DNA of 64,000 nt from Chloroflexota bacterium. Its GTDB lineage: Bacteria > Chloroflexota > UBA11872 > VXOZ01. Under the pieces are notes generated by a model. It was not told the DNA's origin. It did no database searches and saw nothing but the letters and a program-made list of their open reading frames with translations. Where the stretch lies: contig JAPPLM010000065.1 in assembly GCA_028874195.1 (NCBI GenBank), forward strand, positions 1 through 64,000. The letters are read 5' to 3'. A program made the translations under genes and the position numbers. Positions 2,243 to 10,558 of this stretch are shown here, piece by piece (within the stretch, counting starts at the first letter, position 1; every line of letters begins with the position of its first letter).

Positions 2243-2272
2243 TAGACAGCGCGCCCGTCCCTATAGTATGAT
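2243..2272 (+). promoter_or_regulatory. Sigma70-type promoter for the small RNA/peptide unit
   Basis: A -35-like TAGACA (2243-2248) and a -10 TATGAT (2267-2272) are separated by 18 bases. They would start transcription near 2278-2280, just before a perfect extended ribosome-binding site. The tight packing of promoter, RBS, ORF, hairpin and terminator makes this call stronger than the hexamers alone would. Confidence 0.55.
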
Positions 2273-2300
2273 GGTGTGCAAGAGAAAGGAGGTGATGCCC

Positions 2301-2348
2301 ATGGATGTAAGTTGTAAATCCAGGGCCGCCTCTGTCAGGTCTCGGTAA
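2301..2348 (+). CDS. 15-residue peptide with perfect extended Shine-Dalgarno
   Basis: The ORF encodes MDVSCKSRAASVRSR. It is preceded at 2285-2296 by AAAGGAGGTGAT, a 12-base perfect complement of the canonical 16S rRNA 3' end, with 8 nt between GGAGG and the ATG. This is the strongest RBS seen in the window. The peptide is basic, with one Cys. The TAA stop (2346-2348) forms the last three bases of the GNRA loop of the hairpin, so a terminating ribosome would have melted the 5' half of the stem. Function is unknown; a leader-type or stand-alone micropeptide are both possible. Confidence 0.5.
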   Translation: MDVSCKSRAASVRSR

Positions 2349-2379
2349 CGAGACCACGGAGCGGCCTTAGGGAATTGAA

Positions 2380-2417
2380 GGAGCGCCAGCGGTGCACAGG
2401 CACTGGGCGCTCCTTTT
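2380..2417 (+). terminator. Rho-independent terminator of the small RNA unit
   Basis: GGAGCGCC (2380-2387) pairs with GGCGCTCC (2406-2413). An inner GGTGC/GCAC stem caps it and TTTT follows at 2414-2417. Confidence 0.75.
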
Positions 2418-2467: not shown

Positions 2468-2863
2468 CTATTTGTAATGGAGACAGGGAAGAGCCTTGAT
2501 GTTTTTGCTGAGCCACCGCTCTAGCGCAGCAAAGTGAAACGACCCTGTTTCAAACAACTGCATGAAGTACTCATAGGCTACCTTGCTCTCACACTCAATG
2601 AAATGGCCGTTCATGCGGAGAAATGTATCAGTTACAACGAATGCAACCCGCTTGTTTCCATCCACAAACGGATGATTGTTTGCTAGGCTCTCCATCATGG
2701 CTGCTGACTCTTGCACCAAACCCTCGTAGTAGCCAATTTGCGGGCGCATGAGGGCGGAGGCCAGCGCGGCTTCGTCGCGTATACCGGAATCGCCACCAGA
2801 TTCGGCAATCAAAGTAGCATGTATGGCAATGACTTCAGATAACGTAGGGTAGTCATGTGTCAT
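2468..2863 (-). CDS. doc: Doc/Fic-type toxin (death-on-curing family)
   Basis: This 131-residue protein carries the Fic/Doc core NNHPFVDGNKRVAF (about residues 62-75). Its His, Asp/Gly-Asn and Lys-Arg positions match the HxFx(D/G)(A/G)NKR signature. Doc proteins transfer phosphate from ATP to elongation factor Tu, and other Fic proteins add AMP. Length (about 125-135) fits Doc rather than long Fic proteins. The ATG overlaps the stop of the upstream small gene by 4 bases (2860-2863), the usual antitoxin-first toxin-antitoxin layout with translational coupling. Base composition is more AT-rich than the neighbours, in line with mobility of such modules. Family assignment is firm; the exact target is inferred. 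Confidence 0.9.
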   Translation of the reverse strand: MTHDYPTLSEVIAIHATLIAESGGDSGIRDEAALASALMRPQIGYYEGLVQESAAMMESLANNHPFVDGNKRVAFVVTDTFLRMNGHFIECESKVAYEYFMQLFETGSFHFAALERWLSKNIKALPCLHYK

Positions 2864-3087
2864 TCTGCAAGCAACTTGACAAGTTCGCGGTTCTTCTCAA
2901 GGCTCGCCTGGAAGTGCGCCATGACCGCCGCGCGAGGCTTTTCCTGTCTACGCGCTTCTATATAGTCGCGCATAGCATCTTCCAGAACGGCCTGAAAGTG
3001 TCGCCCGTCCTGTTTGGCTATTTTGCGCAGGGAAGCTAGGATTTCCGGATCCGCCTGGCTGGAAAACTTCTGCATTTTTGTCGCCAT
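2860..3087 (-). CDS. Antitoxin partner of the Doc toxin
   Basis: This 75-residue protein is rich in Lys, Arg and Glu, with an N-terminal KMQKFSSQADPEILASLRKIAKQDGRHFQAVLEDAMRD-like helix pattern that resembles short ribbon-helix-helix antitoxins. The C-terminal half (about 48-75) is a charged helix expected to wrap the toxin. A good RBS (GGAGG, reading on the minus strand) precedes the ATG by about 8 nt. It overlaps the toxin start by 4 bases. By analogy with other such operons it should neutralise Doc and repress its own promoter; no operator is visible. The DNA-binding class is a judgement from sequence style only. Confidence 0.8.
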   Translation of the reverse strand: MATKMQKFSSQADPEILASLRKIAKQDGRHFQAVLEDAMRDYIEARRQEKPRAAVMAHFQASLEKNRELVKLLAE

Positions 3088-9783: not shown

Positions 9784-10558
9784 TACCGACCCCTCAGGCT
9801 CATCCCGGAACGGAGTGTTGTATTCATACTAAGTTGTGTGGGCATTTTGCCGTCATTACCATGAAAATAGGCTATCATACCGTTCGCCCTGAGCATTGTC
9901 GAAGGGTGAACGGCGAAAGCGCTTAACAGATTTCGACACTCCTCTCTCCGTTTATGCTTCGACAAGGGCTTCGTGAAGCCCACTCAGCACGAACGGAGAG
10001 ATTCGGCGTTCATTTTCATAACCTTGTGTGGCCTAGTAAGGCCACGGTGATTCCCGTGAAAACCCGCCCCCCAGGGGGCGCGAATCCATCTTCACGCGAC
10101 ACCGGATCGTGCTACTACGCGGGGTGGCGAGCGATCACATGCGCAAGTATCAGATATGTCAATTGCTTTCCTTGCCACTTTGCGGAGCAAAACGAGAGAC
10201 ATCCCGTTCAATCCCTTGAGATTCCTCGCTTGCGCTCGGAAGTGTAGATGTCAGGCAATTCGTCGACAGAAATGGCGGTCGCATTTGCAGCCGTCGCGCT
10301 GACGCAAAGCCTGCTTCCTCCGTCCGTGACACGGGTCTGGACCAAGACGGAGGCTCGCACCGTCACTCCGGCTTGCGCCGGAGTCCAGAGGGTGCGTGCA
10401 AGCTGGATCCTGGCTTGCGCCAGAGTGACGAAACCGGGTGTTCTCTCCTTATTGGAAGATTGACTGGCTGACACAATCTGTCGACGAATTGGTCGGCCTT
10501 TACAGAAATTGCGTTGAATGCGAACAGAGCCGAACGCGCATGTGCCCGTGATCCCGTA
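9784..10558. repeat. Repeat-rich intergenic region between darT and the coiled-coil gene
   Basis: This 775-base gap holds several repeat copies and no credible gene. Contents are: the word at 9848-9870, also found at 44669-44691; two inverted CTTCGACA/GAACGG units (9881-9914 and 9945-10000); a GATTCCTCGC copy (10220-10242); a CTCCGGCTTGCGCCGGAG palindrome (about 10366-10383); and a pair of perfect inverted 14-mers, CAATTCGTCGACAG at 10256-10269 and CTGTCGACGAATTG at 10478-10491, bounding 236 bases. Confidence 0.7.

Follow-up and report, generated by a model that had tools for sequence, protein, structure and literature searches.

A Chloroflexota-wide candidate family of free-standing minigene RNAs with a Shine-Dalgarno sequence predicted to be masked by its own reading frame

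Introduction

Leader-peptide and translational attenuators of the trp/erm type contain a short ORF and mutually exclusive hairpins, and the position of the ribosome decides between them. Dual-function small RNAs of the RNAIII/SgrS type are free-standing and terminated and carry a short translated frame. The unit described here lies at positions 2243–2417 of a 64,000-nt stretch of a Chloroflexota genome (hereafter, the window) and has traits of both. Like the trp/erm attenuators, it possesses a short ORF within hairpins predicted to be mutually exclusive; unlike them, it has no regulated downstream gene, the masked Shine-Dalgarno (SD) sequence is that of the mini-ORF itself, and the unit ends with its own terminator hairpin. 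Like RNAs of the RNAIII/SgrS type, it is predicted to be a free-standing, terminated small RNA with a short frame, and the sequence signals for its own promoter and terminator are both conserved. The difference lies in the peptide, whose frame and stop are conserved while the amino acids are not, and in the conserved core, which is an anti-SD against its own SD inside the ORF. The unit may be a dual-function sRNA.

Three other described elements are relevant for comparison. In Staphylococcus aureus, an SD–anti-SD helix extended beyond the canonical SD is a genome-wide feature of initiation (PMC13009471), whereas the SD of the unit, 11 to 14 nt long in the family, has a single occurrence in the window's genome and is predicted to be masked by the ORF. 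For the axe-txe mini-ORF, the translation of a very short ORF, and not its peptide, was proposed to matter, acting in cis on a toxin gene (PMC8708949); that ORF has two codons, in contrast to 14–16 codons and no partner gene in the unit. The Chloroflexi-1 RNA (RF01698; PMC2864571) is likewise a structured RNA candidate from Chloroflexota but is listed only for Chloroflexus aggregans, while the unit occurs in many Chloroflexota genomes and has no Rfam match. Indeed, Rfam 15 gave no family above the gathering threshold, either in the window or for the unit at 31 homologous loci (best sub-threshold match at E 4.5), in line with an earlier sequence-only reading of this DNA, which knew of no fitting family. 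No description of an equivalent unit was found in the open-access papers searched.

Anatomy of the locus

The features of the unit, all on the plus strand, are as follows.

2243–2272 (+): promoter-like site with −35 TAGACA (2243–2248), an 18-nt spacer and −10 TATGAT within TATAGTATGAT; 10/12 matches
2283–2300 (+): S1, extended SD AGAAAGGAGGTGAT followed by GCCC; contains the 14-nt complement of the 16S rRNA 3′ end
2301–2348 (+): 15-codon ORF MDVSCKSRAASVRSR with stop TAA at 2346–2348
2302–2322 (+): small hairpin TGGAT/ATCCA directly after the start codon; conserved, lineage-specific
2323–2333 (+): S2, anti-SD inside the ORF, GGGCCGCCTCT; pairing partner of S1 or S3, with its 3′ end 11–12 nt before the stop
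2338–2355 (+): apical hairpin GGTCTCG-GTAA-CGAGACC, the loop of which (2345–2348) holds the stop codon; loop sequence varies among relatives
2356–2366 (+): S3, ACGGAGCGGCC; pairs with S2 in the predicted fold, so that S1 is freed
2378–2417 (+): intrinsic-terminator-like hairpin AAGGAGCGCC...GGGCGCTCCTTTT; its stem covaries in homologues

The promoter, the 15-codon ORF and the GTAA-loop hairpin with the enclosed stop were all found where the sequence-only reading had placed them. It had also noted a perfect 12-base anti-16S match, which holds as a match but was understated in length: AGAAAGGAGGTGAT (2283–2296) is complementary over 14 nt to the 16S 3′ end CTGCGGCTGGATCACCTCCTTTCT, taken from four same-genus genomes as the window's own assembly has no such end. 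Of its T-tailed terminator, the hairpin at 2378–2417 stood, whereas the tail has only 4 T, which is why a simple terminator scanner missed it. What it had overlooked is the anti-SD inside the ORF (S2), which is predicted to mask S1, and the predicted competition of S2 with S3.

A chance origin of the unit was ruled out by the folding of positions 2278–2425 (z = −4.9; 0/200 shuffles as good), by conservation in the genus (see below), by the single occurrence of AAGGAGGTGAT in the 3.5-Mb genome, at the unit, and by an expectation of 0.00 for the combination SD + start + AGT in window shuffles. The unit is single-copy in the window's genome.

Conservation within the genus

Each of the five further genomes of the genus has the unit, with 92–97% identity, which makes 6/6 genomes including that of the window. 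The edges of the conserved block were sharp, with flanks either diverged or different. There were 0 changes over 22 nt of the SD region and the promoter was conserved, while four ORF codons varied, all synonymously, in the five genomes with the stop kept. The apical loop differed between copies: it is CTAA (CUAA in RNA) in locus L010, and in L011 a 1-nt loop insertion abolishes the stop, giving an ORF of 43 codons. The GNRA tetraloop, a key feature in the sequence-only reading, therefore lacks conservation even among members of the genus and was rejected as a functional motif.

Distribution across Chloroflexota

Nucleotide BLAST gave matches to the unit in the genus only, as did a search within the class with R1, a covariance model (CM) built from six genus sequences. 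Across 400 sampled Chloroflexota genomes, R1 found full-length matches in 56, mostly one per genome. A second model, R2, was built from 22 sequences, none of them from the genus, and still recovered the window at E 1.5e-9; at E<1e-6 it matched at least 84 of the 400 genomes, as counted from the matches listed, in at least 20 families and usually with one copy per genome. These matches disprove a genus-only curiosity. The sequence-only reading had made its case depend on covarying homologues in such a search, which returned them in quantity.

At the same threshold, R2 passed 1/299 Pseudomonadota control genomes. Since the E-values of the models are loose (44/299 control genomes at E≤0.05), only E<1e-6 combined with the anatomy was trusted. 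Three of the best Pseudomonadota matches were inspected and regarded as chance: in two the alignment covers chiefly the terminator half, and in the third S2:S3 is disrupted. Two further loci were dismissed, namely L060 (R1, E 0.0014), which is a protein-gene start and was left out, and L042 (Alphaproteobacteria), where the pattern arose by chance within other sequence. The other R1 matches examined had a common order of promoter, AAAGGAGGTGATGYCC (S1), mini-ORF with a GGGCATCACC-like S2 inside, stop, GGTGATGCCC (S3) and terminator hairpin.

The model-independent motif SD + start + AGT was present in 159/400 Chloroflexota genomes, whereas its reversed form matched about 18/400; in Pseudomonadota it was present in 16/299 genomes. 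It added lineages, including genomes of 5–13 Mb with a 24-codon version of the ORF. Upstream, in a region outside both models, 65% of 96 members had promoter scores of 9/12 or higher compared with 4% of shuffles, and the SD length is kept at 11 to 14 nt across the phylum. One genome (G311) carries two different copies on separate contigs (L065 and L102). A mobile repeat was rejected, the unit being single-copy in the window's genome and having no phage, plasmid or viral-contig match. By these sequence comparisons, the unit is a conserved, vertically retained RNA/minigene in much of Chloroflexota.

Pairing, covariation and predicted folds

The alignments place the conserved core of the family in three segments: the SD (S1), an anti-SD in the coding frame (S2) and S3, which competes for S2. 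For S2:S3 plus the terminator, 89% of the cells were paired in 22 sequences and two-sided changes occurred in 20/22 pairs, a level of covariation reached by 0/500 shuffles and by no slid control. Compensatory S2:S3 changes were seen again in a further lineage, A5. In the S1:S2 pairing, 96% of the cells were paired, and most changes in S2 leave a G·U with S1 while S3 compensates. The calculated energy of the S1:S2 duplex was −17.1 kcal/mol for the window copy and −19.7 kcal/mol for relatives (p 0–0.015 against shuffles), and it outperformed shuffled ORFs at p≤0.05 in 38/45 members. Moreover, pairing of each S1 with its own ORF exceeded that of swapped combinations (permutation p<1e-4; 38 distinct S1 sequences). 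A few lineages were without a significant S1:S2 match.

Without S3, the predicted fold of the window has the SD paired at −32.8 kcal/mol versus −22.3 kcal/mol with the SD open; with S3 included, the fold reaches −39.8 kcal/mol and the SD is unpaired. Predicted release of the SD by S3 was clear for the window genus, while in the full-length predicted folds S1 was still masked in about half of the members, which suggests bistability and not one fixed order. One lineage type has the two pairings, S1:S2 and S2:S3, on neighbouring and not on identical segments of S2, pointing to a pseudoknot instead of strictly exclusive pairing. The 3′ end of S2 usually lies 11–15 nt before the stop in family members. 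The predicted pairing supports the earlier proposal that translation and stem formation are mutually linked, and a short ORF flanked by hairpins that exclude each other is the arrangement expected of attenuators.

The mini-ORF

The ORF is 14–16 codons long in 67/96 members. Its stops are distributed as TAG 52, TAA 35 and TGA 9 in the 96 members, compared with TGA 113, TAG 97 and TAA 52 in 262 long neighbouring ORFs. Indels inside the ORF comprise whole codons in lineage A4 and likewise in A3, excluding L083, in which the stop TAG has changed to CAG and is lost; for A5 the alignment near the stop is uncertain. Substitutions were spread over codon positions 1, 2 and 3 as 34, 38 and 42, respectively (10 clusters). 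Peptides differ almost completely between lineages, except for the residues imposed by S2, although an M(D/S)SS(C)(K/R) start recurs in some lineages. As far as the alignments can tell, there is no codon-level selection on the peptide, while frame, length and stop are largely kept. With the three codon positions varying equally, the alignments do not support a functional peptide, such as the highly expressed one offered by the sequence-only reading, as what the unit mainly makes.

The start of the ORF has a strong codon bias: AGT accounted for 130/146 Ser codons at codons 2–6 compared with 8.9% in neighbouring ORFs, and near the start it occurred 135 times in frame versus 4 and 5 times in the other frames. 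One alternative frame just past the start is packed with stops (TAG 87, TAA 47). The peptides are short, hydrophilic and rich in Ser, Lys and Arg, not the hydrophobic membrane peptides of type I toxin–antitoxin systems, an assignment that was rejected on this ground. A simple promoter scan listed no minus-strand promoter.

Genomic neighbourhood

In the window, the unit is followed downstream by a Fic/Doc-family toxin gene on the minus strand (2468–3087; Pfam Fic, NCBIfam DOC_P1), accompanied by a small antitoxin-like ORF. The Doc gene does not adjoin the unit in the same-genus loci L010, L012 and L014, and L013 has a different upstream gene. Elsewhere the neighbours are clade-specific, among them a LysM lipoprotein gene upstream and a convergent bL25 gene downstream in one clade, a convergent pfkA in another, and a PDZ-domain (S41-type) protease gene upstream with smpB downstream in a further one. 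No neighbour common to all lineages was present among the loci compared, so the unit is free-standing and cis attenuation of a gene does not explain it. The sequence-only reading had stated that the unit leads to no gene; in agreement with this, and in contrast to attenuators with a conserved regulated gene, the downstream genes vary and are often convergent.

In the smpB group, smpB (Pfam SmpB) follows just downstream on the same strand in 14 loci (L052, L069, L074, L113, L115–L117, L120, L122, L125, L127, L131, L133 and L135), and the PDZ-domain protease gene lies just upstream of the unit in 13 of these. A link of this neighbourhood to ribosome rescue is possible. The unit itself is not a tmRNA: Rfam gave no tmRNA hit there, and the true tmRNAs of L113 and L115 lie elsewhere. 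ARAGORN called a permuted-type tmRNA in the window at 10024–10430 (minus strand; tag AHVIARHPA); the Rfam scan of the window found none, and the call is probably a false positive.

Discussion

On balance, the comparisons make it probable that the unit represents a Chloroflexota-wide family of free-standing, translation-gated, bistable RNAs in which the SD is masked by the coding sequence that it serves. The proposed RNA would be about 120–170 nt long (about 140 nt for the window copy). Its transcription, actual translation and order of switching we infer as follows. The unit's own promoter would drive a minigene with an extended SD (S1); S2, within the coding sequence, would fold back and mask S1, while S3, located 3′ of the stop, would compete for S2. 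In the OFF state, S1:S2 would be paired, with the SD hidden and S3 exposed; in the ON state, either S2:S3 pairing or ribosomes on S2 would leave S1 open and the mini-ORF translated. Established ribosome geometry implies that a ribosome positioned at the stop codon would cover the 3′ part of S2, so that translation itself should keep S1 open. A failure of initiation would let S1:S2 close and expose S3. As the terminator-like hairpin would end the transcript, no downstream gene is expected as a target. Our first choice for the output, the least certain part of this reading, is a dual-function regulatory RNA, which would report free 30S or initiation capacity through exposure of S1 or S3 and not through the peptide. 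More specifically, and only tentatively, the unit might be a stand-alone, phylum-wide sensor of ribosome availability: the masked extended SD would read free 30S, reset at each termination and signal in trans via exposure of S3 (or S1) when translation falters.

As a trans-acting antisense sRNA, the unit would bind other mRNAs at their SD regions through S2, which mimics the 16S 3′ tail, or through S3, and translating the mini-ORF would do no more than gate the availability of these segments. The free-standing RNA with a terminator hairpin and the complementarity of S2 and S3 to SD-like and anti-SD-like sequence would suit such a role; however, S2 follows S1 and S3 within the one molecule, so its conservation is already explained without trans targets, and we regard this explanation as unlikely. 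It is also improbable that the unit is a 30S sponge or hibernation RNA, with free 30S sequestered by the extended SD and bound ribosomes recycled by way of the mini-ORF. The long SD kept phylum-wide and the uniqueness of AAGGAGGTGAT in the window's genome agree with it, but one chromosomal copy would face thousands of ribosomes and masking by S2 would defeat the sponge unless regulated.

The two remaining explanations put the weight on the peptide or on a neighbouring gene. That the unit is an autoregulated micropeptide gene with the peptide as its functional product seems quite unlikely given the even spread of changes over codon positions (34/38/42 in 10 clusters) and peptides that are nearly all different between lineages save for the S2-imposed residues, even though start, frame, length and stop are largely conserved, the four variable codons are synonymous in the stop-keeping copies of the window genus, and the M(D/S)SS(C)(K/R) start is common to some lineages. 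A leader-peptide attenuator whose downstream gene is lost or never shown, e.g., smpB in one group, would account for the attenuator-like competition of three segments and for smpB as the next co-directional gene in 14 loci. Against it, convergent bL25, pfkA or the Fic/Doc gene lies downstream in other lineages, which leaves no common attenuation target, and the terminator hairpin follows the unit regardless of the downstream gene; we consider it very unlikely.

The elementary operations of the translation-gated RNA that we prefer, SD masking and competing hairpins, are already known; as a family and as an architecture, the unit has no counterpart in Rfam or in the open-access papers searched. 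Should the switching prove real, the unit would amount to an attenuator-like device regulating no adjacent gene, usually present once per genome in a large, poorly studied phylum, and would open a direct route to the question of how bacteria sense ribosome supply. The biases for AGU codons and UAG/UAA stops provide further testable handles.

In the 24-codon version from the 5–13 Mb genomes, the S1:S2 match is short and no better than in shuffles. In the large-genome loci L153–L159 and L169, this version has a conserved RCTGS...HTFQ..RG peptide together with a long-range CTGCACAG/CTGTGCAG pairing, and it may form a subfamily of its own in which the constraint is more peptide-like.
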